From: a virus
Virus record (IMG/VR): IMGVR_UViG_3300049629_001293
Location: 34,465-98,464 of that record
Length of the DNA stretch: 64,000 nt
Direction: 5' to 3' (one strand)
Shown: positions 12,526 to 29,579 of the stretch, piece by piece
How positions within the stretch are numbered: the stretch's first letter is position 1
How the letters are laid out: every line of letters begins with the position of its first letter
Translations under genes and position numbers: made by a program
Notes under the pieces: generated by a model
What the model was told of the DNA's origin: nothing
Seen by the model: the letters and a program-made list of their open reading frames with translations, nothing else
The model's database searches: none

Positions 12526-14085
12526 TCAGTTCCCTTGCCTAACTACAGAATAGATAAAATCAAACATTTCTGGATCGTTCTTAGCTAGGTAAATAGGGTT
12601 CCTGTGCATTAATTCTAATCCCATTGATAAAACCTCTGTATTATACATATTACTCCCGTACACTTTCCCCATGTAAGGATGTATCCATTTATCAACCTTG
12701 GTAACTTCGTAATCTTCGTAATTAAGTGGATGTACATCTTTTAATTTTACTATCTCCTCTCCGGCAGTTCTTCTATTATAAAAATTAAGCACCTCTTTGT
12801 GTATTAAAGGGGAACGATCCTCTATCCAATGCCCAGCTTCATGTATTAATGTTGCTTTCTCCGTGGTTCCCATGTCAATAGTCCCCGTTGGCCAGCAACA
12901 GCTTCTTTGTCCTTGTTTTATTTCACGGATAGACAATGTACTGGTTAACCCTGGAATTTCAATCATTCGAGAAAGTTCTTCTATCCCATCCTGATATTCT
13001 TTTTTTCTCTTTTTATCTAAAACTGTATTGTTAGTATTGATTTTTGTGGGATTATCCACATAGATTAATTTTCTGGCTTCTTGAAGAATTGCCTTAATTC
13101 TTTCGTTCGTCTTGGCTCCAGTGTAGTATTCAATGTTTTCATTTGTTAAAAATTGAGCTATAACCTTTTTAGGTAAAAATCGGGGTACGGGAGGGGAATT
13201 GTTTAAGTCTTCCTGTAATTTTAATAACTGCGCTCTTTTCCCTTGTGCTTCGATCATCAATGCGTCTCGTCTTCCCTTCCGTTGTTCCAATAAAATATCT
13301 AATTCTGCATCTTTAGCCTCTTTCTCCTTTCTTTCTTTCTCCCATTTCGCTCTAATCTGATCTGCTTTTATTCTAAGTTGTTCTGATATTGTTCTGAACT
13401 TCTCATCTACCTCATTAGCTTTTTTGAGACGTTCTTGTTCCTCTAGCATTACCTGTTTCTGTTTTTCTGATTTCTTTACTTCATATTCTTTCCTTTTTCT
13501 TTGTACTTCCTCCCAGTCCTTTATTAACAAGGGTTCTGTTATTTTCTTGAGTTCATCAGCTTTTTTAAGAAATTCTTTTTCTTCTTCGGGTAAAATACCT
13601 GGTTTCGTTGATCGTCTTAAATATTTTGCTCGTAATTCGTTTAATTTAAAAAGCCTTTCCTGAGAAAAATCGTCCTGAGCATTGGCTCTGCAACTTTTCT
13701 TGATATTGATACAAATACTTCCACAATTATAGGAAGTTGGCTTTACACACTGGGCTTTCTCCCTTTTCGCTCCCCCTGCATCAATTCGGTAAGAATAACC
13801 TGCTGAGAAGTCTTCCCAATTCTTTAAATCAACACCCCGACTATCAATTCTAGGGGTGAATGGTTTATAAACAACCGACTTCCTGTTTATCTCAAAGGAA
13901 AACACACGAGATCTGGTTAAGTCCTTAAACCGCCCTGTTATCTTTTCATTCTCCAGGGTTCCAGGATCGAAATCTAGCACAATGACCGGAGCATTATAGG
14001 CAAATGACATTGACAGAATTTGACCTATTGCCAATCTCATCTGAGCTTCGGAAGGTGCCATGTTAGGGGCAAAAGATTGAACCAT
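12526..14085 (-). CDS. Virion effector-type protein: shared N-domain, Cys motif, zinc metallopeptidase
   Basis: 519 residues in three parts. Residues about 9-105 are the domain shared across this island (PSEAQMRLAIGQILSMSFAY, NAPVIVLDF, GRFKDLTRSRVFSFEI, WEDFSAGYSYRIDA). A C-x7-C-G-x2-C-x6-C motif lies at about 113-132, followed by a charged coiled coil at about 140-300. The C-terminus has a zinc protease signature HEAGH (415-419) and a downstream conserved TEVLSMGLELM, whose E484 is a plausible third ligand. Probably a packaged protease acting in the infected cell; the substrate is unknown. It is the last gene of the minus-strand island. Confidence 0.75.
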   Translation of the reverse strand: MVQSFAPNMAPSEAQMRLAIGQILSMSFAYNAPVIVLDFDPGTLENEKITGRFKDLTRSRVFSFEINRKSVVYKPFTPRIDSRGVDLKNWEDFSAGYSYRIDAGGAKREKAQCVKPTSYNCGSICINIKKSCRANAQDDFSQERLFKLNELRAKYLRRSTKPGILPEEEKEFLKKADELKKITEPLLIKDWEEVQRKRKEYEVKKSEKQKQVMLEEQERLKKANEVDEKFRTISEQLRIKADQIRAKWEKERKEKEAKDAELDILLEQRKGRRDALMIEAQGKRAQLLKLQEDLNNSPPVPRFLPKKVIAQFLTNENIEYYTGAKTNERIKAILQEARKLIYVDNPTKINTNNTVLDKKRKKEYQDGIEELSRMIEIPGLTSTLSIREIKQGQRSCCWPTGTIDMGTTEKATLIHEAGHWIEDRSPLIHKEVLNFYNRRTAGEEIVKLKDVHPLNYEDYEVTKVDKWIHPYMGKVYGSNMYNTEVLSMGLELMHRNPIYLAKNDPEMFDFIYSVVRQGN

Positions 14086-14093
14086 GATTCTAC

Positions 14094-14393
14094 TTAATAA
14101 ACAATTTCAGACTCATCAACCACTTTCCCGTTAATTACCAAAGGAGGAGGAGCAATAGGTTGATCCATCACTGTCCCGTCAAAAGTCTTCGCCAGTTCTG
14201 TTGCAATCAACCAATCGGGGTCGGGAGTTGCAGGGGAATTAAGCCAGAAGAAAGGCGAGTCAGGGTCTATGGCTGCCAATTTCTCCATTGCTAATACATT
14301 GTTCAGGATCGAGGCATAATGGGGCGTTGAGGATGTCCAAACTCCATTCTCAATAACTGCCACTACACCGTTGATTTTGACGCGATAAGCCAT
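14094..14393 (-). CDS. Hypothetical protein, 99 aa
   Basis: Not recognised. It starts MAYRVKINGVVAVIENGVWT, a beta hairpin, followed by helices (YASILNNVLAMEKLAAIDPD) and a C-terminal strand VINGKVVDESEIVY. Its stop lies 8 bp from the next start, and its own start is 1 bp from the preceding stop. It is therefore embedded in the effector operon, between two metallopeptidase genes, and could be a small partner or chaperone of those proteins. That role is inferred from position only. Confidence 0.65.
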   Translation of the reverse strand: MAYRVKINGVVAVIENGVWTSSTPHYASILNNVLAMEKLAAIDPDSPFFWLNSPATPDPDWLIATELAKTFDGTVMDQPIAPPPLVINGKVVDESEIVY

Positions 14394-14394
14394 G

Positions 14395-15561
14395 TTAACC
14401 TCTTCTAACTACCGAATAAATAAAATCAAACATATCGGGGTCTTGTTTAGCGAGTGCGACTGGATTCCTATACATTAATTCTAAACCCATTGAGAGAATT
14501 TCCGTTGACTCGTCAGGATAAACTTTTCCCATATAAGGACGCATCCATTTATCAACCTTTGTTATTTCAGTATCTCTATACGATTTGATTCCGGTTGCGT
14601 CTCGCATTTTGACCGCTTTTTCTCCCTTTGTCCTGCGATTGTAAAATTCTACAACTTCTTTCTTTATTTCTGGGACGGAGTATTCTATCCAGTGACTTAA
14701 TTCGTGAATAACTGTACCAGGGTCATCATTCCCCATTGACACGGTTTTATCTGCATTATTATAATAACTTCTCTTATCTCCCTCTGGCAAGCCTTTGACA
14801 TTAACCTTACTCGTTAAACCAGGAATTGACACCATTAAAGACAGTGATTGAATCCCCTCATCCCATCGGGATTTATTCTTTTTATCTTTTACTTTAACAT
14901 TAAGATTTGTAGGTAAGTTGACTTGAACTAATTTCCTGACTTCACTTGAAAACCTTTTGAAGTCTTCTGATGCAGCCTCTAATTCTCTTAATTTACCTTC
15001 ACTTAAAATATCAGCCAATGGCGGATTCGTTTTTAATAGTTTATCAATTTCTTTCTTTGTTCTTTTTATTAATTTAGCTAAGTATTTCTCTGGCTTTCCA
15101 TCGTCAATAGCCTTTATAATAGCACTACCTTTGTGTTTAGAAGGATCAAATTTAGATATAAAATCCTCTGACATTTTATCTAATCGTCCCCTAACTTCTT
15201 TCGCTTCTTCTAATAACCTAACTTTTCTTTGTTCTGGGGTTTCTGGTTTATTTATTGGTTTCTCTTTAGCAAGCAAGGGAATGTCGGGGGTGAAATCATT
15301 GATTGACTTTAAGTTGTCGACACCAGGAGGAATAATAGGATTGGATTTAATAGCCTTTTCTTTTGCAGACCTTCTACTAACGGCGGTAACGTAATCAATT
15401 CCTATCGCTTTTAGCTTCTCAAGCCTATCCTTTGACCTAGAATCATTCGGAACTATCCTGCAATTTTTCTTAACATTAATGCAAGATAGACCACAATTAT
15501 AGGAAGTAGTCTTTACACATTGAGCTTTCTTTTCCCTCTTGTCTTCTCTATATTTAATCAT
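14395..15561 (-). CDS. Cys-motif zinc metallopeptidase lacking the N-domain
   Basis: 388 residues. The first 13 residues lead straight into the Cys motif (CVKTTSYNCGLSCINVKKNC at 15-34), so the ~100-residue domain found in its paralogues is absent. A charged helical linker follows, then the protease: HELSH at 286-290 and STEILSMGLELM with candidate ligand E354. From about residue 200 on it closely matches the neighbouring metallopeptidases. The start overlaps the previous stop by ATGA, so it is translationally coupled and probably intact. Loss of the N-domain may mean it is carried by a partner. Confidence 0.75.
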   Translation of the reverse strand: MIKYREDKREKKAQCVKTTSYNCGLSCINVKKNCRIVPNDSRSKDRLEKLKAIGIDYVTAVSRRSAKEKAIKSNPIIPPGVDNLKSINDFTPDIPLLAKEKPINKPETPEQRKVRLLEEAKEVRGRLDKMSEDFISKFDPSKHKGSAIIKAIDDGKPEKYLAKLIKRTKKEIDKLLKTNPPLADILSEGKLRELEAASEDFKRFSSEVRKLVQVNLPTNLNVKVKDKKNKSRWDEGIQSLSLMVSIPGLTSKVNVKGLPEGDKRSYYNNADKTVSMGNDDPGTVIHELSHWIEYSVPEIKKEVVEFYNRRTKGEKAVKMRDATGIKSYRDTEITKVDKWMRPYMGKVYPDESTEILSMGLELMYRNPVALAKQDPDMFDFIYSVVRRG

Positions 15562-16658
15562 TTTCTCCTCACAACACTATAAATAAAATCAAACATTTCA
15601 GGATCATTCTTGGCTAGATATACCGGATTCCTATACATTAATTCCATCCCCATTGATAATATTTCAGAAGCATTTTTATATTCTTTGCCCATATAAGGAT
15701 TTAACCATTTATCAACTTTTGTAACCTCATCATCTCTATAGTTCTTGTTTCCTGTAACTTCGCTCATCTTAACGGTTTTTTCCCCTGCCGTTCGCTTTTC
15801 GTAAAAAGATTCAACTTCTTCTCTAATCCCTGGCACTTTCTCCTCTAGCCAATGACTCATCTCGTGAACTACAACAGCAGGGTCAGGATTCCCCATATAA
15901 ACATTATTTGTTTTCGGTTTGTAATAGCTTCTCCCTTTTCTTTCTGGCGGAGCATTAACTATATTAACTGGAGCATCCAGCCCTGGAATTGAGATCATTT
16001 TTTGGAATACCTCAACACCTTTTTGATGGGATCTAGGATTTCCGGTTTTGACGGATGAATTCAACTTAGTTGGACTATCCACTTCTACCAATTTTCTAGC
16101 CTTCTCTAAAAAAGCCTGAGCTTCTTTGTTCGAGGTATTAAACACTCTCTCCGCCCTTGCTGATAGCCTCTCAGCCTCTTGTGGGTCTTCTTGCGACAAA
16201 CCCTTGATTTTCTTACTGTAAAGAAGTTTATTCTTTTTAAGTTGCCGAACGGGGTTCTCCGATTCAAGTAACGAGGCAGTCCCTTTCTTCGTAACAGATG
16301 TTTCGCTAACGCCCTCGTATAATTTCAGCAGTTCCTCTCGCTTGCTTGCAGCCTCCGCTTTTAGTCGTGCTTTCCTGCGAGCTTGATTGATAATCTTCCT
16401 GTCCACTGCCAACTCGGACGCTTCTGTTTTTCTGGCTTTTTCTACCACGCCAACCAATTCATCGGCCGCGGCTTTTTGCCTTAAAGACCTTGCTGACTTC
16501 GATTTTGATTGAGCATAGAATTGAGAGATTTGTTTTAACCTCTGAAGACGCGATCGCCCAAAAGATTCAGAAGGGACTTGCCGGCAATTTTTAGAGACGT
16601 TAATACAGGCGTTGCCACAGTTATAGGATGTTGGCTTTTCGCATTTGGGCTTCTTCAT
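15558..16658 (-). CDS. Cys-motif zinc metallopeptidase, second N-domain-less copy
   Basis: 366 residues. It starts MKKPKCEKPTSYNCGNACIN, with the Cys motif at the extreme N-terminus, then a basic helical linker (RSLRQKAAADELVG, RRKARLKAEAASKREELL). The protease has HEMSH at 265-269 and ASEILSMGMELM with candidate ligand E332; the last ~100 residues are the most conserved part of the three copies. It overlaps the next gene by four bases. The 115-bp gap upstream separates it from the ART gene. Confidence 0.75.
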   Translation of the reverse strand: MKKPKCEKPTSYNCGNACINVSKNCRQVPSESFGRSRLQRLKQISQFYAQSKSKSARSLRQKAAADELVGVVEKARKTEASELAVDRKIINQARRKARLKAEAASKREELLKLYEGVSETSVTKKGTASLLESENPVRQLKKNKLLYSKKIKGLSQEDPQEAERLSARAERVFNTSNKEAQAFLEKARKLVEVDSPTKLNSSVKTGNPRSHQKGVEVFQKMISIPGLDAPVNIVNAPPERKGRSYYKPKTNNVYMGNPDPAVVVHEMSHWLEEKVPGIREEVESFYEKRTAGEKTVKMSEVTGNKNYRDDEVTKVDKWLNPYMGKEYKNASEILSMGMELMYRNPVYLAKNDPEMFDFIYSVVRRK

Positions 16659-16773
16659 TTCAGAACATCACCATTAAGTTTATTGGGTTACTTTTTTGTA
16701 TTGATTTTTCTTCGAGATAAAGCATAATTAATAGTAGGAATTAACTATGTTTTATTTGGGATTGAGTCGTCGC

Positions 16774-18189
16774 TTAAATTTCTTCTACTTCGACATATAT
16801 TGTGCCATCTTTTTTTGTGACATTCTTAACCTTATGTTTTGCACTTTTTGGTACAACAACTTCGGACACCCACTCATAACCCTCTGGGGTAAGGTTTTGA
16901 ATAGATGCACCCGTTTTATTTATCGCCTTAAGCACAACACGTTGTCCAGCATCACCGGCTCCTCTAAAACCAGCAAATTTTTCGGCAGTCTTGGGATCGG
17001 TAGTCCATGAAGCATGGGCACCTTGATTGTCTAATACCCCATCTTTGTCCCCTTTTAGCCAATTCATAGCTTCATCTTCTGAATCAAAATTCATCCCCCT
17101 CTGTATCTCTCCCTTGTATGGGGTCGAATTTGCAAGATATTTAGAAATTAAATTTGCTCCTACGTTTGGTCTATTTTCTTTTTGTGATCTTCTAATTGCT
17201 TCGGAATTATAAACCCACGATCTGACATATTTAACAGTCGCCTTAGCCTCGCCTTCTGTTATTTCAATTCCTTTCTTCCTGGCCATCTCATAGTATTCTT
17301 GTGGGTTTTTAGGTGTACTTTCATGAGTCCCATCACCAATCAAATTTGTTGGCTCAGGCTTCTTGGTCTCTGGTTCAGGTTTTTTAGTTTCTTCCTTTGG
17401 TTTAGATGCTTCTTTCTTTGGTTTAGATGCTTCTTTCTCTGGAGATTGAGTGGAACTTGGCGCTGTCGTTTTTTGGGATTTTATGTAGTTAGCAACACCA
17501 TCTTTTATTTTTGATAATTGAGTGCCACTAACCCCGGCTTTCGTTGCAGCTTCTTCTAGTTTAAGAACACTAACTCCTGCTTTCTTTGCCAAACCTTCTA
17601 TCTGAGCAATGGAAAGAGTTTTTGCTTTTTCTTTCGTCTGTTTTTCTGCTGGTTTTTTCGTTTCAGCATTAGGATCTGTTTTAGCTGTTTTAGTTACTTC
17701 TGATGCCTTGGGTTTTTCTGTTACTTTGGTTGTTTTTGCATAATCCTTCCCTACTTCCTTTAATTTACTAAGCCTCTCCTGTGAATTACTATCTTCCGTG
17801 CTGGATTTGCAGTTATTCTTAATATTGATACAGGCTTTCCCACAATTATACGCTGTCGGTTTAACACACTGTGGCTTCTTATTACCTCCTATCCCCGCAT
17901 CTACCCGATAGGAGTAGCCACTAGAGAATTCCTCCCAGTCATCTACGCTATCCATCCGTCCTGGGGTGTAAGGTTTAAAAGTGACTGATTGCCCTTTGAT
18001 ATTAAATGAAAAAATACGGGGACGGGTTGCATCCTTGAATTTGCCTTCAAACTCCCCTTGATCATTTACCGAAAAATCCAATATCACCACCGGAGCATTA
18101 TAGGCAAATGGTTGAGACAGAGTTTGGGCGATCGCCAACTTCATCTGTGGCTCGGTTGGCGTGGCATCTTTTCTAGTCGTTGAACTCAT
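16774..18189 (-). CDS. Virion effector-type protein: shared N-domain, Cys motif, ADP-ribosyltransferase
   Basis: 471 residues. The N-domain is at about 10-98, the Cys motif CVKPTAYNCGKACINIKNNC at 108-127, and a Lys/Pro/Glu-rich linker with ASKPK and TKKPEPE repeats at about 150-280. The C-terminal ART-like module (about 281-471) has R364 in GEIQRGMNF, HASWTT at about 392-397 followed by AEKFAG, and a terminal VSEVVV with E443. This is the R-S-E order of ADP-ribosyltransferases, although the residue two before the catalytic Glu is Val instead of Glu or Gln, so target choice or activity may differ from the tandem paralogue. Confidence 0.72.
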   Translation of the reverse strand: MSSTTRKDATPTEPQMKLAIAQTLSQPFAYNAPVVILDFSVNDQGEFEGKFKDATRPRIFSFNIKGQSVTFKPYTPGRMDSVDDWEEFSSGYSYRVDAGIGGNKKPQCVKPTAYNCGKACINIKNNCKSSTEDSNSQERLSKLKEVGKDYAKTTKVTEKPKASEVTKTAKTDPNAETKKPAEKQTKEKAKTLSIAQIEGLAKKAGVSVLKLEEAATKAGVSGTQLSKIKDGVANYIKSQKTTAPSSTQSPEKEASKPKKEASKPKEETKKPEPETKKPEPTNLIGDGTHESTPKNPQEYYEMARKKGIEITEGEAKATVKYVRSWVYNSEAIRRSQKENRPNVGANLISKYLANSTPYKGEIQRGMNFDSEDEAMNWLKGDKDGVLDNQGAHASWTTDPKTAEKFAGFRGAGDAGQRVVLKAINKTGASIQNLTPEGYEWVSEVVVPKSAKHKVKNVTKKDGTIYVEVEEI

Positions 18190-18200
18190 GGTTAAATCTC

Positions 18201-20150
18201 CTATACTTCCTCAGCTTCAACAATAATCCGTCCGTTTTCTTCCTTGACACTTTTAACTCGATGGCGAGTGTCTTTTAGCACCATAACTTCGTCTTCTTCT
18301 TTGATCCTGCTCAAATTCCTAATAGACACACCTGATTTATTAATGGTTTTAATGACGACGGGATACCTTTTTTCCTCAATAAAGAAATCGTCCGAAAAAT
18401 TCTTTGCTGTTTTAAGGCTAGATGACCAAGAGGCGTGAGCACCTTGATTATCTAGCACCCCATCCTTGTCGCCTTTAGTCCAGTTTAAAGCCTCCTCTTT
18501 GGTTGCAAAATGAATCCCTCGGTAAACTTCGCCTTCGTATGGGGTTGAGTTCCTGACATAATTAGAAATCCGATTGGCATCCTCGTTTTCTTCCCCTGCT
18601 TTTTGATCGACTCGGATGTCAGTGGCATCCCTTGTCCATTTATAGATGGCTGTAGTGGTGGCTGCTGCCTCCTTCTTAGAAATATTTACTCCTGCTTTTT
18701 CCAGTGCTTCACGATACTCATCGGGGGTTGAGGGCATGGATTCGTGGTCGCCCTTCCCTACTAAATTAAGGTTTTTAGGTTTTTCTTCGGGTTGTTTAAC
18801 CGCCTTTTCCTCGGATTCTTTTTGGGTTTTAGTTATTTCTGGTGATGGTTCAGGCATTTTCTTTTCCTTGTTAGGAGAAACTTCTTCTGTCTCAACGATC
18901 AAAACACCATCTTCGTACACAACCTTTTTAACCCGATGGCGAGTGTCTTTGATGACCACTACCTCATCTTCCGTATCAAAGGTGCTTAAATTTTTGATAG
19001 AGGCACCTGACTTATTAATTGTTTTGATAATGATAGGTTGTGATGTCTCATCGAACGCATTGTCAACAGCAAATTCTCTCGCTTTATCCCAATTAGAAGT
19101 CCAAGATGCGTGGGCATTTTGATTGTCCAATATTCCGTCTTTGTCTCCTTTTGCCCACTCCAGTGCTTCTTCTGTTGATTCAAGGGAGATACCTCGGTAG
19201 ATTTCACCTTTGAATGGCGTTGAACTCTTGACGTAATCAGTGATCCGGTCGGCAACGAGGCTGTATTTCCCTGCTTTTTGAGATTCTCTAATATAAGAGG
19301 CATCTTCTGTCCACTCTTTAACGGCTCCGGTAATCTTTATAGCATCGTCATAAGAGATGGGATTACCCGATGCTTTCATTGCTTCAAAGTACCCGTATGC
19401 GTCGCCAGGAACGGACTCATGATCCCCCTTCCCTACTAAATTAAGAGGCTTGGGTTCGTTTTCAGGTTCTTTAAGGGTTTCTGTTTGATCTTCACTCTTT
19501 ACAGCTATTTTAGCAGCTTTCTTCCCTTCTTCAAAGTCAGATTCTTTCCCTTTTTTGCTAGGGGGAATTTCCTTTATTGTTTCTGGGATTTTATCTATTT
19601 CTGGTGGTTTTTCTACCTCTTTCTTGGTTTTTGTAGTTGATTTAGGATTGGATTTCTTGGCTTCTTTAGCGTAATCAATACCAGCAGCTTTCAATTTCTC
19701 TAAACGATCCTTTGACTGAGCGTCATCGGGGTTTGATTTACAATTATTATTAATATTTATACAGGCTTTCCCGCAATTATATGCGGTGGGTTTAACGCAT
19801 TGGGGTTTCTTTTTGTCTCCTGCCTTGCCTTTTGCTTTAGCCGTTTTAGCCTTGGCATCAAAACGGAAGGAATAGCCTAATGAGAACTCCTCCCATTGTT
19901 CTACTGCATCGCCCGAATCCATCCGTCCTGGGGTATAAGGTTTGAAGTTAACGGTATTTCCATCTAACTCAAAATCAAACACCCTCGGACGGGCAGAATC
20001 CTTAAATCTCCCAGATATTTTACCCGTGTCATCTACCTTAAAGTCCAGCACGTCCACTGGGGCGTTATAGGCAAAAGGAAGAGCAAGAGTCTGGGCGATC
20101 GCTGCTTGCATTTGTACTTTTGTTGGGGCTGTTTTAGTCTCTATGCTCAT
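18201..20150 (-). CDS. Virion effector-type protein with two tandem ADP-ribosyltransferase domains
   Basis: 649 residues. N-domain about 8-98; Cys motif at 118-137; linker to about 235. Two homologous ART modules follow, each opening LNLVGKGDHES. ART1 has R319 in EIYRGI, ASWTS at 348-352 and E394-D-E396. ART2 has R544 in EVYRGI, ASWSS at 573-577 and E619-D-E621. Both keep the Arg, Ser/Thr and ExE signature expected for mono-ADP-ribosylation from NAD+. By analogy with T4 Alt and ModA/ModB, injected enzymes of this kind could modify host RNA polymerase or translation factors; the targets are unknown. Confidence 0.78.
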   Translation of the reverse strand: MSIETKTAPTKVQMQAAIAQTLALPFAYNAPVDVLDFKVDDTGKISGRFKDSARPRVFDFELDGNTVNFKPYTPGRMDSGDAVEQWEEFSLGYSFRFDAKAKTAKAKGKAGDKKKPQCVKPTAYNCGKACININNNCKSNPDDAQSKDRLEKLKAAGIDYAKEAKKSNPKSTTKTKKEVEKPPEIDKIPETIKEIPPSKKGKESDFEEGKKAAKIAVKSEDQTETLKEPENEPKPLNLVGKGDHESVPGDAYGYFEAMKASGNPISYDDAIKITGAVKEWTEDASYIRESQKAGKYSLVADRITDYVKSSTPFKGEIYRGISLESTEEALEWAKGDKDGILDNQNAHASWTSNWDKAREFAVDNAFDETSQPIIIKTINKSGASIKNLSTFDTEDEVVVIKDTRHRVKKVVYEDGVLIVETEEVSPNKEKKMPEPSPEITKTQKESEEKAVKQPEEKPKNLNLVGKGDHESMPSTPDEYREALEKAGVNISKKEAAATTTAIYKWTRDATDIRVDQKAGEENEDANRISNYVRNSTPYEGEVYRGIHFATKEEALNWTKGDKDGVLDNQGAHASWSSSLKTAKNFSDDFFIEEKRYPVVIKTINKSGVSIRNLSRIKEEDEVMVLKDTRHRVKSVKEENGRIIVEAEEV

Positions 20151-20251
20151 GTTTTTGCTCTTCCTTTTGCTTTAGAAGTATTTATACAAGAATTGCCGCA
20201 ATCGCAAGAAGTGGGTTTAACACATTTAGGTTTTTCGCTTTTGACCCACAT
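20147..20251 (-). CDS. Mini Cys-motif protein, 34 aa
   Basis: A short ORF between two island genes reads MWVKSEKPKCVKPTSCDCGN, then SCINTSKAKGRAKT. It is the Cys motif alone, with C10, C18 and C22 kept and the fourth Cys lost. It starts one base after the upstream gene's TAG and its TGA overlaps the next ATG (ATGA). The clean coupling argues for translation, while the missing fourth Cys argues for a remnant. Either it is a stand-alone motif peptide or the stub of a deleted island member. Confidence 0.55.
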   Translation of the reverse strand: MWVKSEKPKCVKPTSCDCGNSCINTSKAKGRAKT

Positions 20252-20252: not shown

Positions 20253-21611
20253 CTATTTAGTTACTTGAGCAAAAGACCTCATTTTGCCCGCCGCGTTTTG
20301 GATTCCGTCGCCATATCTTTTATTGATATCAGAACCAGGAGGATATTCCCCTCTGCCTACGCCATTAAGAGTAAACAAATCATTCTCGTGTAAGTCAAGC
20401 ATGGCTCTATTAAAATCACCCCGACCAACCTTATCCCCCATTGCGTCACGGATCTTGTATATAGGGACAAGACCTCCATGATTCCCTTCTTTGTCTATGT
20501 CTTTCAATAGTGTAGATATCTCTTTCTGTATTTCTTTTTGATCAGACATCTGCCCTGGTTTGCGCTTAAATTCTTGTTTTGCTTTTTCAATAGCTTTTGT
20601 GTCTTTTATAACAAAAGATTGACGATTCCTGTTGAACATATCGGTAATTCCGTCCGAAGGATCAAATTGTCCGTCTGGATTCATATCCTCTTTTTTTAAC
20701 GTTCCAGTTTCTAGTTCGATTCCCTCGTCATCTGTACCTGCCTTTAGTGTCCATTTATCAAAGTCTTCTTTACTCACCCTGTCTTTTAATTCATGTCTCA
20801 TTTGTGCTATGTTTACTCGATCTCCTTGTCCTAACTCAAACGCAACCCTAGCTGCTTCTTTGACAATCTCCTTTTTAAAGGTGTCATAATCCTTTATTGG
20901 TTCGTCACTATAAAAGGGATTTGCCTTGGATTTAGGACTAGATTTAGCTTTGGGTTTAACTTCGGGCTTTGGCTCGATCTTGGCTTCTGGTTCTGCCGTT
21001 TTCTTTGTTGCCAATTTTTGACCAGTAGGCTTTTTACTCTCTGCTTTAGGCTTGGTTTGGGGCTTTTCTACAGTCGTTTTTGCTGTTTTCGCGTAATCTT
21101 TCCCAATTCCTTCTAACTTTTTAAGCCTGTCTTTTATTGTGGGATCATTGGTTTTGATTTTGCAGGTTTTCATGATGTTGATGCAAGCTGCACCACAATT
21201 GTAAGCTGTCGGCTTAACGCATTGAGGCTTTTTTTTGCCACCTACTCCCGCATCAACACGGAAGCCATACCCTGCTGAAAATGCCTCCCATTCTTGGACA
21301 TCTTCCTCTGATTCTAAGCTGTCCATTTTGCCAGGTTTATAAGGCTTATAGGCTACGGACTCCCCATCTAGGGTAAAGGAAAACACCCGTGGACGTGCCG
21401 CATCTTTAAATACTCCGGTAATATTGCCATTCTCGGCAACATCAAATTTAAGCACAACAACTGGGGCGTTATAAACAAAATCCATTGACAAGGTTTGGGC
21501 AATAAGTAACCTCATTTGAGCTTCGGTTGGTGCAGTACCTCCGCCACCATCCCCAACTAATACTTCATCTTCGTCAACACGGAACAAAGAACTTGGTTTT
21601 GTTTTTAACAT
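20253..21611 (-). CDS. Virion effector-type protein: shared N-domain, Cys motif, possible winged-helix module
   Basis: 452 residues. A 25-residue Gly-rich leader precedes the N-domain (about 27-120); the Cys motif is at 131-150 and a Lys/Pro-rich linker runs to about 235. The C-terminal ~215 residues contain two similar helix-helix-turn-strand units (VNIAQMRHELKDRVSKEDFD and VPIYKIRDAMGDKVGRGDFN), each followed by a hydrophobic strand, which resembles paired winged helices. No catalytic motif is visible, so it may act by binding DNA or a host protein. It is the first gene of the 12.5-21.6 kb operon. Confidence 0.65.
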   Translation of the reverse strand: MLKTKPSSLFRVDEDEVLVGDGGGGTAPTEAQMRLLIAQTLSMDFVYNAPVVVLKFDVAENGNITGVFKDAARPRVFSFTLDGESVAYKPYKPGKMDSLESEEDVQEWEAFSAGYGFRVDAGVGGKKKPQCVKPTAYNCGAACINIMKTCKIKTNDPTIKDRLKKLEGIGKDYAKTAKTTVEKPQTKPKAESKKPTGQKLATKKTAEPEAKIEPKPEVKPKAKSSPKSKANPFYSDEPIKDYDTFKKEIVKEAARVAFELGQGDRVNIAQMRHELKDRVSKEDFDKWTLKAGTDDEGIELETGTLKKEDMNPDGQFDPSDGITDMFNRNRQSFVIKDTKAIEKAKQEFKRKPGQMSDQKEIQKEISTLLKDIDKEGNHGGLVPIYKIRDAMGDKVGRGDFNRAMLDLHENDLFTLNGVGRGEYPPGSDINKRYGDGIQNAAGKMRSFAQVTK

Positions 21612-23093: not shown

Positions 23094-24047
23094 TTATTCG
23101 GGTAATACTACAATGTGCATGGAGAATGGGCGTTTGAGGTCAATTCCCCCAAACTTAAACTTGGCACCACGCCAGAAAGAATCAACACCAATGGGACGAG
23201 TATCAGTCCACTTTAATGGTTGATAAATCTTAGCAGAGACTTTTTTGGGATCTCGACGGAAAGCCTGAATAAAGCGGGTAGGAGCCAAACCAATCGACTC
23301 TAAATATTCGGGAGCCATCTCGGACACCACACCGACTTCTTTGATGTTGGAGTTGACTTTTAAGAAGTGTTCTAACACCGTGCGATCTAAGGCAGATGTA
23401 CCAATTTGAATGATATCCGAGGAGAGGTGTTCGTAAGTTTCCGAATCCATCAGCAAAGTGTCAGGCTTCTCTCGGTTATTGGTCAACCGAGTCGGGGCAT
23501 TCACACAATCATTCAACACACTCAGCTTTTGTTGAGATGTTGCAGACCCGTTTAAAGGGAAGGGAGCATAAGACCGCAGGGCTTGGGGGTGATTCAAAAA
23601 ACCTGGCATCCCTGTTTCTAAATCTCCGTTTGCCACCAACTGATTGATTTTTTGTTGTGCGGCTTCTTGAATTGTCCAGATTTTGTCCTCCTCAATGCTC
23701 TCGCCCATTCGACTGACAGCCGCGATATCATCCTCGGAAACGCTATAACCTTGTCCCCATTTATGGATCGGCATCTTCATCTCGCCATAGACCAGTTCCA
23801 CTTCGGGAAGGTCTGTGGTGTAGTTTCGGATTAATTTGAACTGCCCGACGTGACGGAGCCACCGATATCCCCAGGTTTTTGCCCAGGGCTTGTTTTGGAT
23901 GTTGAGAGGGCAAATGACTCCAGCAGCGAAAGGATAGTCCGCAAGATCGAACTCCTTATCTACTTGAGCTTCTAAGTCCATCAGGGTGCCAAAGAACGTC
24001 CCGATTTCATCAGCATCCAACCTTGTAGTCCCGGAAAAGTTCATCAT
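23094..24047 (-). CDS. Major capsid protein (DUF2184-type)
   Basis: 317 residues. N-terminal arm FFGTLMDLEAQVDKEFDLAD, then FAAGVICPLNIQNKPWAKTW, EVELVYGEMKMPIHKWGQGY, a DTLLMDSETYEHL segment and the end GAKFKFGGIDLKRPFSMHIV. This order resembles the DUF2184 group of HK97-fold capsid proteins. Size and location after the decoration-protein and protease genes fit. No N-terminal scaffolding region is present; the acidic C-terminal part of the protease at 24897-26432 may supply that role. Confidence 0.75.
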   Translation of the reverse strand: MMNFSGTTRLDADEIGTFFGTLMDLEAQVDKEFDLADYPFAAGVICPLNIQNKPWAKTWGYRWLRHVGQFKLIRNYTTDLPEVELVYGEMKMPIHKWGQGYSVSEDDIAAVSRMGESIEEDKIWTIQEAAQQKINQLVANGDLETGMPGFLNHPQALRSYAPFPLNGSATSQQKLSVLNDCVNAPTRLTNNREKPDTLLMDSETYEHLSSDIIQIGTSALDRTVLEHFLKVNSNIKEVGVVSEMAPEYLESIGLAPTRFIQAFRRDPKKVSAKIYQPLKWTDTRPIGVDSFWRGAKFKFGGIDLKRPFSMHIVVLPE

Positions 24048-24066
24048 AGTTTAAGTTCTTTCTATA

Positions 24067-24897
24067 TTAAGGAACATTGAAGCCGATTAAAACGCACACC
24101 GCGCCAGTGCTAGTGACCACAGGGGAACATTTGAACTCAGCCTTCGCGGAGATATTAATTGTACCACTTGTCACTTTTGTTGCTTTCCCCTCGTGTCCCG
24201 CAGCAACAGAGACGTAGACGGCATCATTGATTGTGATATCCGTCTCAACACATTCAACCCAGATCCCTGACGATTCCCCTGTCCGGTCAACCACGTCCAT
24301 CACATCCTGATAGGGGTAAGTTGTCCCACTATAGTTTGCACCTTGATAAATCAAAGGTTGCATTTCGATGTCTTTGACGATTCGAGTAATCCCTAAGATT
24401 ACGTCAGTGGTAGCAGTAGGAAGTCCTGCAACTTTGGGGTCGGTTTCGGTGTTTGCTCTGGCAACAAACCGACCGAATGGTACGGGGAGAGGAATAATCA
24501 TCGCCGTGGTTACAGTTGCCGTTAAACTAGCACCAGTAACTACCAGGATGTTCTCGATACCATATTCCAGTGCCGTGAATAGCACGTTATTCCCACTAAC
24601 ACTTGCAATCCCCCGTCGCCCAAAAGCAGGGTTTACTCGGATTGCATTCAATAAACCAGCTTGCAGTTCCGCTTGAGTGGCACTAGCATCGGTTGTAAAA
24701 CGTGCCGTGCCTAGTCCGTTGTTTAACCTGACGGTATATACAGTGCTAGAAGCAGGGGAGGCAGGAATCGCCAGAGTCCAGACCTCTTTAACAGCATTCT
24801 TTATAGAAACAAGGGCTTTGACTCTCGGAAAATTAATAGATCCCTCGCCCATGCCAGGAGTCGCCCGATCAAATTGAAGATTGTAGTTGTACCGCAT
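24067..24897 (-). CDS. Capsid cement/decoration-like structural protein
   Basis: 276 residues, beta-rich and Ala/Thr/Val-rich. The N-terminus (MRYNYNLQFDRATPGMGEGS) and the C-terminal half (TDVILGITRIVKDIEMQPLI, INDAVYVSVAAGHEGKATKV) resemble the Gp24-type structural cement proteins found next to DUF2184 capsid genes. Residues about 40-135 look like an inserted immunoglobulin-like module similar to one in the protein at 33716-34372. It overlaps the protease gene by one base (TAATG). Confidence 0.65.
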   Translation of the reverse strand: MRYNYNLQFDRATPGMGEGSINFPRVKALVSIKNAVKEVWTLAIPASPASSTVYTVRLNNGLGTARFTTDASATQAELQAGLLNAIRVNPAFGRRGIASVSGNNVLFTALEYGIENILVVTGASLTATVTTAMIIPLPVPFGRFVARANTETDPKVAGLPTATTDVILGITRIVKDIEMQPLIYQGANYSGTTYPYQDVMDVVDRTGESSGIWVECVETDITINDAVYVSVAAGHEGKATKVTSGTINISAKAEFKCSPVVTSTGAVCVLIGFNVP

Positions 24898-26432
24898 TAT
24901 CTAGTAACCCCCATGCGTGTTTTTCCTATCGTTAAAGGCTGCTTATAGGCGTGCACCCGTCGTCTTTCCCCTTCGGTGAGTTCATCTCCGTAGGTAGATT
25001 GAGCAGGTCTTTTGAGCATCGAATCAAGGCGATGGGAGAACTCCTCTGAGTCTCCATCGTCTCCATCGTCTCTATCTTCTTCCTCCTCGTCATCCCCTTC
25101 TTCTTTATCACCTGGATCGGTGGGGGAAGAATCGTAATTCTCCTGAACGTAGGCAAAAACCCCGTCTACATAAGAATCGGATCGGAACGTCAAGTCCATA
25201 TTGGGTTCGATTTCAGCTAACAAAGTGCGTTTGATGTCGCTAGTAGAGAAGCTACTATCAAACCGAGCGTCAGAGAACCCTGGCAACAAACTGTCGGCTT
25301 CCTTCCATATCGCCAAAAGATCCCCGACCGAATCACCCCGACAAGCACTCTCATCTTCGTCGTTGCTATCAACACGAGGCTTGGACTTTTTTTTCTTTTT
25401 GGAAGTCGTAGTTTCTTCTTCCTCTGCAACATCCCATTCTTCCATCATTTCTTCTTCTTCATTGTCCTCCTCTTCCATCATTTCTTCATCTTCGGGAACG
25501 GGAGGCATCATTTTCTTTTTGCCTCCATCAACGCGGACGTACTGCCCCATGTCATTCCGGTAATAACCTAATTCACCAAGGACATTATCGGCATTGTCTA
25601 CGATGATCTCTAGGTTATCTAACCGGAACTGGTAATTTTCCCGTGCGGCTTCTAGCTTCCGGTTCTCCCGACTCGTAGTATCAAACCGTGTAACAAGCGA
25701 ATCGTGGCGTTCCTTTAATTCTTTCAATTCACGGAATCGAGTACCGCTAATGGAAGCGAAAGATTCAGGGATTCCTGAATACTCAACTCCATCGCATCTA
25801 ACTATTGCCATACGCTGTTCATTATCTCCATTATCATTGGTTTTGTTAGGGTTACTAGGGTTTTCGATGACTTGCCCTGCGACAGCTTGTCCAATCCCCG
25901 CAGCACTATCTAATCGGAGGCGAACATCTCCCCCTGCCCTTCCTCGGCTCGTCAAAGCCAAATGGTTGGCACGGACATTAATCTGTTCCCTGTCATAGTG
26001 TTGCCCATTCCACACCCCTTCCCCTTGCTTGATGTCGCAGGTATATCCAGCAGATAGTTGTTCCTTTTCCCTTGCATCAATTAGGGCGATCGCCTTAGCA
26101 TCAAAAAACGACACCAAGCCTTTGATCACCCCTTCAGTCTTGTCATAATAAGCAGAAGAATCAGTCATCCCTACCGTGTAATCCTTGTAGCTTTCGCTAT
26201 TAAGAAGTCCAACATAGGGATGTTCTATCACCAGGGGGAGGAGTTTGAAACTCTCTACTGTGGCCAGTTCTGCATTGGTTTCCGGTCTCCTGAGTTCGTG
26301 GACTATGGAGCCATCAGGCTGACGATACTCCAACACCCCGTCACAACAAAAAGACCCCTCACAATGGAGACGACCATCCTCAGTTCTTATTACCCTAAAT
26401 TTAGTTGGAGCATCGAGCCTGATTTCAACCAT
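24897..26432 (-). CDS. DUF2213-type prohead protease with acidic scaffold-like C-terminus
   Basis: 511 residues. Residues 1-175 match DUF2213: EHPYVG (70-75), VKGLV-type strands, LSAGYTCDI (126-134), then QINVRANHLALTSRGRAGGD (150-169). The family is the presumed capsid-maturation protease of DUF2184 phages. After a helical middle there is a run of acidic EE/DD-rich tracts (about 310-345 and 445-470) and a basic KKKKKSK stretch between them. That tail is likely a built-in scaffolding region removed on maturation, which is inference from phages where protease and scaffold are fused. Confidence 0.8.
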   Translation of the reverse strand: MVEIRLDAPTKFRVIRTEDGRLHCEGSFCCDGVLEYRQPDGSIVHELRRPETNAELATVESFKLLPLVIEHPYVGLLNSESYKDYTVGMTDSSAYYDKTEGVIKGLVSFFDAKAIALIDAREKEQLSAGYTCDIKQGEGVWNGQHYDREQINVRANHLALTSRGRAGGDVRLRLDSAAGIGQAVAGQVIENPSNPNKTNDNGDNEQRMAIVRCDGVEYSGIPESFASISGTRFRELKELKERHDSLVTRFDTTSRENRKLEAARENYQFRLDNLEIIVDNADNVLGELGYYRNDMGQYVRVDGGKKKMMPPVPEDEEMMEEEDNEEEEMMEEWDVAEEEETTTSKKKKKSKPRVDSNDEDESACRGDSVGDLLAIWKEADSLLPGFSDARFDSSFSTSDIKRTLLAEIEPNMDLTFRSDSYVDGVFAYVQENYDSSPTDPGDKEEGDDEEEEDRDDGDDGDSEEFSHRLDSMLKRPAQSTYGDELTEGERRRVHAYKQPLTIGKTRMGVTR

Positions 26433-26505
26433 TTCTCAATACAAAAAACAAATAATTCTTTTTAAAGAATAACGCACCCTATCAGTCATTTAAAGAGGGT
26501 GCAAA

Positions 26506-26529
26506 AAAATAATTTCTATACAAGAAAAT
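26506..26529 (+). promoter_or_regulatory. 24-bp operator-like element, copy 1
   Basis: A 24-bp A/T-rich sequence with a palindromic core (TTTCT-ATAC-AAGAAA) lies 36 bp before the HTH gene at 26565. The identical 24 bp occurs at 30139-30162. It is probably a binding site for the adjacent HTH protein. Confidence 0.6.
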
Positions 26530-26564
26530 AGACTAAAATTAAATCAATGATTTAGATATAAATA

Positions 26565-26939
26565 ATGACTATTACAAAAAGAGAGTATCCTTCTAAGAAA
26601 ACGTTAGGATCTGGTGCATTGGCTCCCTATCGCGCTCTCGGTCGGTCAATTCGACGAGATCTTATAAATGCAAATCTTGGAATGATGGAATTTAGCGAGA
26701 AAAGTGGGTGGGATTGGCAGACAATTCGACGGATTTTAATGGGGGAGCGGCGGACGGATTTTATAGAACTGTTGATTATCGCTTCGTTAATTTCTGAGGA
26801 TCAATCGGAAACGGAAAGACTGATCCTCACCTGGACGAAGGAAACTTTGAAAATCATCGAGGAAGGAATCCCCCAAGAAATTAACCCAGGTCTTGTTGAT
26901 AATCTTGTCGAGATTAACGAAGAGATCCCTTTAGAATAG
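26565..26939 (+). CDS. HTH transcriptional regulator
   Basis: 124 residues on the plus strand inside a minus-strand head operon. Residues about 24-75 form a Cro/XRE-like HTH (GRSIRRDLINANLGMMEFSE, then WQTIRRILMGERRTD), followed by a leucine/isoleucine-rich dimerisation-like helix and an acidic tail. The palindromic 24-bp element upstream suggests autoregulation. Its 3' end overlaps the convergent gene at 26914 by 26 bp. It may time expression of the flanking late genes. Confidence 0.65.
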   Translation: MTITKREYPSKKTLGSGALAPYRALGRSIRRDLINANLGMMEFSEKSGWDWQTIRRILMGERRTDFIELLIIASLISEDQSETERLILTWTKETLKIIEEGIPQEINPGLVDNLVEINEEIPLE

Positions 26940-27333
26940 CAATAATCTCCTGACGATTCCGTTGGCTTACTCCTAAAAATTGACGTTTAGGCATTTTCTT
27001 AGTGCCTTTTTGTAAATAGGAGCCATAGGGCAATGGAGTCCCTACCTCAACCCTTCCTTTTTCAATCCGATATCGAATAGAAGATCGCAACAATCCTTGG
27101 CGTTGTAGTATTTGCATAATAAAACCCCGACTAGCCTTGTATTTAAGGGTTGATGGGGCTAGGTGTTCCCATTTCTCCCCATAAGGACTCTGTTCCTTCT
27201 GGAAGTTCTCATCGGTTGATGCCACCATGAACTGCCCAACTTTATGCAGTTCAGGTGTGAGGTTCTGAAACTTTCTGATTAATTTATTGAGGTAATTTTG
27301 GACTTGGTTAGCAACGAATTTTAGGGATAGCAT
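26914..27333 (-). CDS. Phage virion morphogenesis protein (tail completion type)
   Basis: 139 residues. The core SPYGEKWEHLAPSTLKYKA, then LQRQGLLRSSIRYRIEKGRV and VGTPLPYGSYLQKGTKKMPK followed by RQFLG is characteristic of the virion morphogenesis/gpS-like family (tail completion and head-tail joining in P2- and Mu-like phages). It stands alone on the minus strand between the regulator and the polyvalent-type effector. Confidence 0.8.
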   Translation of the reverse strand: MLSLKFVANQVQNYLNKLIRKFQNLTPELHKVGQFMVASTDENFQKEQSPYGEKWEHLAPSTLKYKASRGFIMQILQRQGLLRSSIRYRIEKGRVEVGTPLPYGSYLQKGTKKMPKRQFLGVSQRNRQEIIAILKGSLR

Positions 27334-27439
27334 AGGGTTAAAAGTAAAATATATCCTAATTTTAATATAAAAAAGGAAGGCTTTAACACCTCCTCCATCT
27401 TACCGTTTCAGTTACCCTCTGCACCCTCAAAACCCTCTT

Positions 27440-27577
27440 TTAATATTGTTTTGACTTTTGACTGTTTTCTGTCTTTTGGGTAGCTAACCGATTCTTGTCT
27501 TCAAGTAGACGATTATACGCTACAACCTCATCAAGAACTCGGTTTTTTTCCAAATCGGTAAGTTTTTTGTAGTTCAT
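27440..27577 (-). CDS. Small overlapping coiled-coil protein, 45 aa
   Basis: This ORF starts inside the 3' end of the effector gene at 27531, in another frame, and runs 91 bp beyond it. It reads MNYKKLTDLEKNRVLDEVVA, YNRLLEDKNRLATQKTENSQ, KSKQY. The heptad-like charged helix and an AGGT six bases before ATG support translation, coupled to the larger gene. Function unknown; it may be a chaperone or partner of the preceding effector. Confidence 0.5.
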   Translation of the reverse strand: MNYKKLTDLEKNRVLDEVVAYNRLLEDKNRLATQKTENSQKSKQY

Positions 27578-29168
27578 CTAGTACCTGTTCATATACTTCT
27601 TTTATTATTTTAGCAGAACCTTTTTGATTATTGGCTAATTTTTCTGCTGCTTGATTCAAAAGTGTCGAAACTTTTCCTGTTAGCATTTTTTCTTGATCAA
27701 ATGCCCCTAGTGCTTTTTCTGCAATATCAGCAATTTCACTTGACTCCTCTACGTTGATTTTATTTCCTGCTTTGGCTAAATCTGAGGCAGCTTTTGACTT
27801 CCCAACAGTTGAGAATAAACGCTTTTCCCTTTGCAACTGTCTTTTTATAGCAGATTGAATCTGGGCTTTTTCAATAGCCAAAGAGCGAGATTCAGGGGAA
27901 AATCCCAACAAATCAAATAAGCCACCCTGAGATTCGGTTATTGTTGGGGCATTTGTTACCATATCGGACAATTCCTCTATAGTGTCATTAGTGATCTTTT
28001 TACCTTTTTTCTCTTCTTTCTCCACTAACTCTAGTAAGTCTTGTTGTTGGCGGTGATCTTTTATTTTAGAACCAATTACAACAGCCCTTTGTTCGGGGAT
28101 TTGACCCTGTACCACTCTATTAAATAGAGAGTCACTTAGACTAGCTAAAGCCAGCCCGTCCTCAGCTATTTTCTCCCTCATGGGTACGCCTTTTTTCTCT
28201 AGGTCTTGTTTTGTTAAACCAGAATCTCTAAAGAATTTAGCTGCATCCTGAGCATTGCCTCGACCTTCTGCGATATTTGTTAATGCACCAATAGCACGGG
28301 CTTCTTCTGGAGATTTAGCATCAATTAATTTTACGGTGACGGATTCAGCATTTAGTTTTTTAGCTAATGCAAGTCGGTTGTGACCGTTCACGACATAAAC
28401 ACCGCCATCTTTGGGATCTTGCCAAACTTGAAGGATGCCACCCAGGTTAGAATCCCACGTTTTAACTCCCGACAAACTCCCGACTTCTCCCGACTTGGTT
28501 TGCTCTCCAATGATCTTGTATTGAAATCTTTTAGGGTCAACCTGGATTTTACTGGGGTCGGCTTCTGCTATTCCTGAAGACAAGACTTGATCCGCCCCCA
28601 ACCGAGAAGCAGCATCATCCCACTTTCCTGCTGGTTTCGGTGTCAGCTTGTTATTCTCCTGCCTCTTAGCCGGATCATCCTGAGCCTCCTTAAACCCTCC
28701 CGCCATAGCTTTAACTTTGTCCAGCTTTTCCTGGGAAGGTTTATCAGGGGGGTCTGACTTGCAGTTCTTATTTAAGCTAATACAAGCCTTCCCGCAGTTA
28801 TAGGAAGTATTGCCACACTTAGGTTTTTCCTTCCTAACGGTCTTAGCTACATCGAATCGGTAGCAATACCCCTTTGAGTAGTCTTCCCACGCCACGGGGT
28901 CAACGTCGAGGCTGTCGGTTCGTTTCCAGGTAAACGGTTTGAAGGCAATGGAATCCCCAATCTCAAACTCAAAAACACGGGATCTAATGGCGTCCTTAAA
29001 CCGTCCTTTGATGATGTTTTTGTTGCCTACTTCAAAATCCAGAACGATAACCGGAGAGTTGTAGGCAAATGGCATCGACAAGACTTGAGAAATACCAAGT
29101 TTCATCTGCACTTCTGTTGGGGCAGCATCAAAGCTAGGGGGATTTTGACGGTTTAAGGTAGTGACCAT
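27531..29168 (-). CDS. Virion effector-type protein: shared N-domain, Cys motif, DdrB/ParB-like module
   Basis: 545 residues. N-domain about 13-108 (APTEVQMKLGISQVLSMPFA, GRFKDAIRSRVFEFEI); the Cys motif is a C-x6-C-G-x2-C-x6-C variant at 118-136. From about 195 comes a ParB-superfamily module with the box VYVVNGHNRLALAKKL (257-272), then TNIAEGRGNAQDAAKFFRDS (297-316) and LALASLSDSLFNRVVQGQIP. This layout is typical of the DdrB-like module in phage polyvalent proteins, best known from the P1 Dar antirestriction system whose proteins are injected with DNA. It is separated by 6 kb of head genes from its paralogues. Confidence 0.78.
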   Translation of the reverse strand: MVTTLNRQNPPSFDAAPTEVQMKLGISQVLSMPFAYNSPVIVLDFEVGNKNIIKGRFKDAIRSRVFEFEIGDSIAFKPFTWKRTDSLDVDPVAWEDYSKGYCYRFDVAKTVRKEKPKCGNTSYNCGKACISLNKNCKSDPPDKPSQEKLDKVKAMAGGFKEAQDDPAKRQENNKLTPKPAGKWDDAASRLGADQVLSSGIAEADPSKIQVDPKRFQYKIIGEQTKSGEVGSLSGVKTWDSNLGGILQVWQDPKDGGVYVVNGHNRLALAKKLNAESVTVKLIDAKSPEEARAIGALTNIAEGRGNAQDAAKFFRDSGLTKQDLEKKGVPMREKIAEDGLALASLSDSLFNRVVQGQIPEQRAVVIGSKIKDHRQQQDLLELVEKEEKKGKKITNDTIEELSDMVTNAPTITESQGGLFDLLGFSPESRSLAIEKAQIQSAIKRQLQREKRLFSTVGKSKAASDLAKAGNKINVEESSEIADIAEKALGAFDQEKMLTGKVSTLLNQAAEKLANNQKGSAKIIKEVYEQVLDELQKTYRFGKKPSS

Positions 29169-29220
29169 TGTTTTTGAGAATAGATTTACCGAGTCTTTCT
29201 GTACGGGTGCAGGTCGGGGT

Positions 29221-29445
29221 TTACCAGTCTTCCGGCCCTTGAGCTACAAAACGTTTGGCACGTTCGCGTTTTTCATCTTCTGTCAAATCGTCATAGCTTT
29301 TTTTTGGATATTTCTTAGCCATTCTTTTATCAAATTCCTGCAATGTCTCCCCTTCCCCTAAAGCATCCTCATCTTCGGATACAACAGCAGGAGGAACGGT
29401 TTTAATTTTCTTTTGTCCTTCAACAGCAGTTTTTTTGGCTTTCAT
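29221..29445 (-). CDS. Hypothetical charged protein, 74 aa
   Basis: Highly charged and probably disordered: MKAKKTAVEGQKKIKTVPPA, then SEDEDALGEGETLQEFDKRM and YDDLTEDEKRERAKRF. Not recognised. It lies 52 bp upstream of the DdrB-like effector and in the same orientation, so it is probably cotranscribed; it may be an adaptor or chaperone. Its low-complexity composition gives little homology signal. Confidence 0.5.
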   Translation of the reverse strand: MKAKKTAVEGQKKIKTVPPAVVSEDEDALGEGETLQEFDKRMAKKYPKKSYDDLTEDEKRERAKRFVAQGPEDW

Positions 29446-29495
29446 AATTGATTTTCGTTTTTAATGCTAATAGGTCTATTATACTTTGTTTTTGC

Positions 29496-29579
29496 TTAAT
29501 TAAGTTTACTTCTACCAATATCAAAATGTGCTTGGGCGATCGCTAACTTCACCCGGATTTCTGTTGGCGGAGCATCGAA
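29496..29579 (-). pseudogene. Decayed fragment of the shared effector N-domain
   Basis: With no start codon available, the minus-strand frame reads FDAPPTEIRVKLAIAQAHFD and then diverges to a stop. It matches the opening of the effector N-domain (FDAAPTEVQMKLGISQ in the gene at 27531; APTEAQMRLLIAQ in others). It also carries a HIP1 octamer. This is the remains of another island member lost by deletion. Confidence 0.65.

Follow-up and report, generated by a model that had tools for sequence, protein, structure and literature searches.

A shared N-terminal domain and four-cysteine motif precede exchanged effector modules in PaV-LD-like cyanophages: a likely virion-loading tag

Introduction

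Effectors that are delivered with the virion and swapped behind a common part have already been described, in the MuF polymorphic toxins, the polyvalent proteins and the internal proteins of phage T4. Here we analyze a gene island in a 64,000-nucleotide stretch of viral DNA (the window), which is part of the 98,464-bp IMG/VR virus record IMGVR_UViG_3300049629_001293. The island consists of genes A to G, whose products carry all or part of a leader composed of a ~100-residue N-terminal domain (N-domain) and a four-cysteine motif (Cys4). Together we call these the tag, and behind it stand differing modules, among them ADP-ribosyltransferases (ARTs) and HExxH metallopeptidase-like domains. A first-pass annotation of the window had known of no described system that combines these parts. 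The general logic has been described, as listed above, whereas the tag family itself we have not found described.

The MuF polymorphic toxins have a virion-associated leader and swapped C-terminal effectors, with metallopeptidases and ARTs common among them; their genes lie directly after the portal gene, and they are thought to be injected (Jamet et al. 2017, PMC5576092). The island resembles them in that variable C-terminal effectors are exchanged behind conserved leaders. In contrast to the MuF toxins, the leader in the window is the N-domain plus Cys4 and contains no MuF domain. MuF (PF04233) gave no match in the window record, in Planktothrix phage PaV-LD or in the PaV-LD-like records L003, L004 and L011, and because this domain was tested for and is absent, the window proteins are not MuF toxins. 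The N-domain plus Cys4 leader can itself follow a portal, and its Cys4 part can follow a MuF domain.

The polyvalent proteins of phages and conjugative elements draw on a repertoire of zincin metallopeptidase (MPTase), ART and ParB/DdrB domains (Iyer et al. 2017, PMC5512222). The predicted effectors of the island match this repertoire in a virion context, with a possible zincin fold in the HExxH module, and LPD1 and ART-PolyVal domains are found on Cys4 proteins elsewhere. The window proteins differ in being short, with one tag and one or two modules. The words cysteine, cyanophage and Planktothrix do not occur in the main text of the polyvalent-protein paper (PMC5512222), nor does the word cysteine in that of the MuF paper (PMC5576092).

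The T4 internal proteins Ip1-Ip3 have a shared N-terminal packaging sequence and variable bodies, are injected and serve in counter-defence (PMC12373910). They are probably the best functional analogue of the island. However, T4 uses a short signal sequence as leader, and the characterized bodies are inhibitors, whereas in the window a folded domain of ~100 residues plus Cys4 precedes putative enzymes. In T4-type internal proteins, the prohead protease cleaves the N-terminal capsid-targeting sequence. In phage P1, the Dar proteins DarA, Hdf and DdrB are head-associated and thought to protect the injected DNA, and DdrB combines ParB-like and MPTase domains (PMC12810830, PMC5512222). DarA and Hdf bind the inner capsid as a pair. 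We know of no leader shared among the P1 Dar proteins.

Results

The tag in the window

We scanned all six frames of the whole 64 kb for the pattern C-x5..8-C[GA]-x2-C-x6-C and found exactly seven matches, all in genes A to G and none elsewhere. A profile of the tag recognized five genes with the full N-domain plus Cys4 (A, D, E, F and G, with E-values of 3e-71 to 5e-78), one more than the four that the first-pass annotation had counted. Genes B and C carry Cys4 without the N-domain, as that annotation had said of two further genes. Likewise, the mini-gene with a remnant of the motif and the decayed start of an N-domain that it had reported are both real. The latter has a near-identical counterpart at the same place in PaV-LD (ORF059, 38 amino acids), and therefore the decay is old.

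The HExxH modules expected in three genes are those of A, B and C, and the single and double ARTs are those of D and E, respectively, with a match of gene E to the Pfam ART family PF01129 at 6.4e-6. Both ART copies of E read YRGI, AHASW(T/S)S and EDE, and the ART of D reads QRGM, AHASWTT and VSE, the last where ExE is expected. By this combination of profile match and R / S-T-S / ExE signature, the E and D modules are predicted to be NAD:arginine ADP-ribosyltransferases (NAD, nicotinamide adenine dinucleotide). The HExxH module matched Pfam Tox-MPTase3 only weakly, at an E-value of 0.2. The module of gene G had been called DdrB/ParB-like; it matches ParB-like families weakly, and it matches a portal C-terminal extension (phrog_21) at 2e-56. 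We found no family for the module of gene F beyond PaV-LD-like phages, and the winged-helix pair suggested earlier for it was not confirmed. PDB sequence searches with the G module and with gene E gave no match.

The ratio of nonsynonymous to synonymous substitution rates (dN/dS) was 0.03-0.47 for the modules and about 0.05-0.24 for the tags in most comparisons (one tag comparison stood at 0.55 and some were saturated), as compared with 0.017 for the capsid protein. This purifying selection on both tags and modules indicates that they are selected proteins and not chance open reading frames (ORFs).

Exchange of modules behind the tag

With the five window tags as the search alignment, we found tag relatives at 41 loci in IMG/VR, and none in 84,980 prokaryote species (one genome each) by the peptide patterns used. 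About 107 modules stand behind these tags and group into about 24 clusters, although the counts are not independent because some of the 41 loci overlap. By Pfam, the modules include ART, GNAT acetyltransferase and, weakly, ParB_N; there are also HExxH proteins and several modules without a family, and one tagged protein contains, as judged by eye, three ART-like copies.

The place of gene D (slot D) illustrates the exchange, with tags that are 95-98% identical on proteins of 152, 471, 610, 621, 667 and 941 amino acids. In three loci (L003, L004 and L008), a slot-F tag (97% identity) is joined to the window's slot-D ART (99% over 339 amino acids). The diagnostic sites in these loci run 128 F to 0 D and then 2 F to 477 D, and the crossover falls at nucleotides 399-408, inside the Cys4 codons (nucleotides 391-450). 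At slot G, in another set, modules that are 100% identical stand on tags that are only 82% identical. Thus, the conserved leader with swapped C-termini that the first-pass annotation had recognized is real and extensive. Recombination within the tag exchanges the cargo, and its crossovers can fall in the Cys4 codons themselves.

Tag-only ORFs of 142-152 amino acids were also observed (L005:10001-10459, L006:4819-5277, L008:3128-3580 and L021:7056-7484). These consist of an intact N-domain and Cys4 without cargo, and in relatives the slots in question are occupied by full effectors. On the 70.6-kb Planktothrix agardhii plasmid NZ_LR882964, an orphan start of an N-domain, ~24 residues long (L051:8001-8087), lies near an integrase and a DISARM gene.

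Portal and MuF fusions in other phages

We also scanned IMG/VR with the patterns C-x2-G-x2-CG-x2-CI-x5-C and KNCxKGxxCG, and many further Cys4 records were among the matches listed. A Cys4 profile matched all 50 of 50 chosen records at E<=1e-4; since these records had been picked by the motif, the match is a sign of consistency and not evidence. In several unrelated arrangements identified by Pfam, Cys4 follows a virion protein and often precedes an effector-type domain (Table 1). The fusions found are to portal and MuF proteins, with none to a tail protein. In other cases the portal and Cys4 frames share ~30 nucleotides (L098, L101, L103, L108, L122 and L129) or the Cys4 frame starts within 170 nucleotides after the portal, and in the relatives L254, L206 and L098 the gene is directly downstream of the portal. 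Cys4 genes standing alone carry LPD1, DnaJ and kinase-like domains. Recurrence of the tag with other effector types, which had been named beforehand as support, is observed.

Portals of known tailed phages point their C-terminal side towards the inside of the capsid. The fusion of the tag to portal C-termini, or its place directly after portal genes, in unrelated phages lends its proposed role in virion loading support that is independent of the window; packaging and injection themselves we continue to infer.

Aphanizomenon phage CL131 is the next relative by terminase (PMC6293099). It has seven Cys4 motifs, in gp044, gp045, gp047 and gp048, on different bodies, and all of these genes lie between the neck genes and the tape measure. 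In gp048 (L052:42705-48140; 1,811 amino acids), four Cys4 motifs and a degenerate fifth alternate with alpha/beta-hydrolase segments, and gp044 appears JAB-like by eye (HNHP...SPADV). The CL131 portal (L052:8800-12981) is a portal-InPase-MuF fusion, and the window portal also has a C-terminal InPase domain.

Outside a virion context, a signal peptide is followed at once by the Cys4 pattern in L056, L059, L060, L094, L097, L099 and L163, with KNC(K/R)KGIPCGNSCIS...C as the typical pattern of these secreted proteins. A related cysteine-rich pattern, roughly CC(K/R)xC..GxACGxxCI.....C, ends small proteins in L189, L192, L194 and L207, which come from alphaproteobacteria, a Sandaracinus metagenome-assembled genome and a cyanobacterial genome.

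The N-domain and Cys4 as a unit

We scored a profile of the PaV-LD-type N-domain on 85 windows upstream of Cys4 outside the PaV-LD group and on 2,888 other windows from the same loci. The top five windows, and 12 of the top 13, lie upstream of Cys4. Iteration ended with a stable set of 14 windows: 11 lie upstream of Cys4, and three are controls, which are apparently real N-domain copies in neighbouring frames. Inclusion in the iteration was by E-value, as a decoy threshold was unusable with apparent real N-domains among the decoys. Comparison of the full tag between the PaV-LD and Mu-type sets by hhalign gave a probability of 97.7% and an E-value of 1.9e-12. With Cys4 removed, the N-domain scored 26.1, as compared with at most 8.3 for any of 60 column shuffles and 1.0 for the reversed profile, at a nominal probability of 37% and an E-value of 6e-5. 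Portal, N-domain and Cys4 occur in that order in a single ORF of the Portal_Mu type in L066, L205, L240 and L258, and in L254 a frame with N-domain and Cys4 begins 4 nucleotides after the portal frame. The N-domain and Cys4 are thus conserved as a two-part unit.

Direct hhalign alignment of the tag with single CL131 segments did not give a clear match. With the iterated profile, the CL131 portal segment reached an E-value of only 0.009. A Foldseek match of 1393 amino acids, the same length as gp012 of CL131, had an E-value of 0.057. The N-domain may therefore be present inside the CL131 portal, which we treat as a lead only.

No Pfam match covers the N-domain or Cys4. AlphaFold2 models the N-domain as a helix and a four-stranded meander, with a predicted local distance difference test score (pLDDT) of about 80-88 for residues 11-70, and gives Cys4 low confidence; a Foldseek search of the PDB with the tag gave no match (best E-value 0.36). 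The model of gene C is confident (mean pLDDT 88.9). In it, Cys4 forms a small hairpin before an 84-residue helix, and the HExxH motif lies in a helix that is followed by a later Glu-bearing helix. Foldseek gave no match for this model in the PDB either, probably because of the long helices.

Relatives of the modules

Matches to the HExxH module lie at the end of head-morphogenesis proteins of the MuF type (in Bacillus phage vB_BpsS-36, where Pfam confirmed MuF) and in proteins from the structural region of Streptococcus phages. Likewise, the ART module matches a MuF-Zeta-toxin protein of cyanophage PSS2. The G module matches parts of proteins of 2,563 and 1,484 amino acids in two Autographiviridae, both encoded after tail tubular protein B, a correspondence in position only to T7 gp14-16. 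In T7, gp14-16 are the ejected core proteins.

Genome context

PaV-LD is the closest annotated relative at 12-36 kb, with 88.7% identical nucleotides across 65% of the stretch. The major capsid proteins of the two are 98.4% identical, and the window genes E and C are about 74% and 70% identical, respectively, to their PaV-LD counterparts. The island is thus not peculiar to the window genome but is present in an isolated phage. The direct relatives of its genes in PaV-LD, at corresponding places, are ORF061, 065, 078-081 and 085 (NC_016564); most of their annotations read hypothetical or minor head/virion protein, and their module set differs from that of the window.

The region encodes terminase, a portal with an InPase domain, neck, maturation protease, decoration, major capsid and connector proteins, together with a probable tape-measure chaperone and a tape measure of 1,681 amino acids; the maturation protease gene is that of the head. 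Genes A-F sit between the head-tail connectors and the tape measure, and gene G, the third gene after the portal, sits between the portal and capsid genes. ORFs A-G lie where the first-pass annotation had placed them, on the minus strand throughout, and the effector genes are spaced from a 4-nucleotide overlap to gaps of ~115 nucleotides, except for one conserved ORF of 99 amino acids.

The tape measure gene occupies positions 6683-11728 of the window, and its PaV-LD counterpart, ORF088, encodes 1,584 amino acids. PaV-LD has been described as tail-less or as a podovirus despite encoding this protein. PaV-LD and the window virus may both be long-tailed siphoviruses.

Table 1. Features of the island in the window, and Cys4 fusions at other loci (aa, amino acids)
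Feature	Position or locus	Strand	Match
Gene A, 519 aa: N-domain, Cys4, helical linker, HExxH (HEAGH) metallopeptidase-like module	12526..14085	-	phrog_33618 4.6e-80
Cys4 motif of gene A, CVKPTSYNCGSICINIKKSC	13690..13749	-	
ORF of 99 aa separating B and A, kept in PaV-LD (ORF082), no family	14094..14393	-	
Gene B, 388 aa: Cys4, helical linker, HExxH (HELSH) module, without N-domain	14395..15561	-	
Cys4 motif of gene B	15460..15519	-	
Gene C, 366 aa: Cys4, long helix, HExxH (HEMSH) module; overlaps B by 4 nucleotides	15558..16658	-	
Cys4 motif of gene C	16584..16643	-	
Gene D, 471 aa: N-domain, Cys4, one ART module	16774..18189	-	
N-domain of gene D (modelled as helix and four-stranded meander)	17896..18168	-	
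Cys4 motif of gene D	17809..17868	-	
Gene E, 649 aa: N-domain, Cys4, two ART modules	18201..20150	-	Pfam ART 6.4e-6; phrog_16619 1e-239
Cys4 motif of gene E	19740..19799	-	
Mini-gene: Cys4 remnant, SEKPKCVKPTSCDCGNSCINTSK, last Cys lost	20168..20248	-	
Gene F, 452 aa: N-domain, Cys4, module without family	20253..21611	-	
Cys4 motif of gene F	21162..21221	-	
Gene G, 545 aa: N-domain, Cys4, ParB-like module	27531..29168	-	
Cys4 motif of gene G	28761..28817	-	
Decayed N-domain start, 27 codons, FDAPPTEIRVKLAIAQAHFDIGRSKLN	29496..29579	-	
Portal protein (Phage_portal_3) with C-terminal InPase domain (context gene)	31627..33621	-	Pfam
Portal_Mu, Cys4, ART	L058		Pfam
Portal_Mu, Cys4, DUF3626	L066		Pfam
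Portal_Mu, InPase, Cys4	L087		Pfam
Lambda-type portal, Cys4, weak GNAT	L105		Pfam
Lambda-type portal, Cys4, DUF3626, ART-PolyVal	L244		Pfam
Phage_portal_3, Cys4	L225		Pfam
Phage_Mu_F, Cys4, peptidase C39	L202 (Leptolyngbyaceae genome)		Pfam

Discussion

We consider it likely that the island encodes virion-associated, injected effectors built on one loading tag. In the mechanism that we propose, the N-domain would dock the protein on the portal or head during assembly, and Cys4, as a zinc site or through disulfides, would form a compact joint between this anchor and the cargo. The enzymes carried as cargo (ADP-ribosyltransferases, HExxH peptidases, ParB-like enzymes and others) would enter the cyanobacterial cell with the DNA and, at an early stage of infection, would modify proteins of the host or inactivate its defences. 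Given that no MuF gene was detected in PaV-LD-like records, the tagged proteins may fill the MuF role, with the tag doing for these phages what MuF does in others.

Several points weigh against a loading tag. The presence of tagged proteins in the virion and their injection are proposed from sequence comparison, and genes A-F lie in the head-tail joining and tail region, away from the portal. In a rigid-shift test on 12 contigs, the closeness of Cys4 to portal or MuF was not significant (p 0.08-0.42), and the iterated profile did not detect the N-domain in the lambda-type portal fusions. Motifs resembling Cys4 are also present in bacterial proteins that are secreted and bear signal peptides, and therefore Cys4 alone is not virion-specific.

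The location of genes A-F, and of the CL131 Cys4 genes, between connector or neck genes and the tape measure would be expected if the tagged proteins were attached to the tail or neck, with the tail tube or connector as docking site for the tag and with enzymes that act at the envelope or pass through the tail. The Cys4 genes of G414 and G436, which are 5-41 kb from the nearest portal or MuF match, point the same way. However, the fusions observed join Cys4 to portal and MuF and none to a tail protein, an ART needs NAD, which is cytosolic, and the modules have their relatives in head proteins, so that we regard tail or neck attachment as unlikely. The portal and MuF fusions also put the tag in virion proteins, which argues against late intracellular proteins that are left unpackaged, serve in host takeover or exclusion of competing phages, and use the tag to target a host factor or assembly site. 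T4 is known to make non-packaged ARTs as well, but the island genes are set among late structural genes, and we find an intracellular role improbable.

A polymorphic toxin set for cell-cell competition, with immunity genes and merely located in a phage, would share the tip-swapping logic, and such systems often include metallopeptidase and ART domains (PMC5576092). Yet the genes are packed, with no immunity-like gene after each effector, and the tag occurs in phage records and has no relative, by the patterns used, in the prokaryote genomes searched, which leaves this explanation very improbable. An ordinary toxin-immunity system was set aside, as immunity genes are lacking. Finally, functionless paralogues kept by gene conversion as a by-product of recombination would fit the mini-gene, the decayed fragment and the tag-only ORFs, but we give this next to no credence in view of the low dN/dS of modules and most tags and the retention of the HExxH and ART signature residues.

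Beyond a loading tag for the island itself, we tentatively put forward a broader proposal, to which we assign slightly short of an even chance. The N-domain plus Cys4 could be an undescribed general virion-loading unit of tailed phages, either fused to the portal (Cys4 in the Mu, lambda and type-3 portals, the full unit in Mu portals) or used as a stand-alone leader. Its cargo would make up, next to MuF, a second large group of polymorphic effectors that are delivered from the capsid. The Cys4 codons would serve as the cargo-exchange joint, and Cys4 may be a redox- or zinc-dependent release element.

The exchange of cargo by recombination inside the tag is a clear case of its kind. If the island's tag does load virions, a simple tag profile would find hidden injected effectors, mostly annotated as hypothetical, in many phages, and would also show what cyanophages deliver to their hosts on entry. 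The tag itself would then be a leader that could be moved to other proteins to load them into phage heads.

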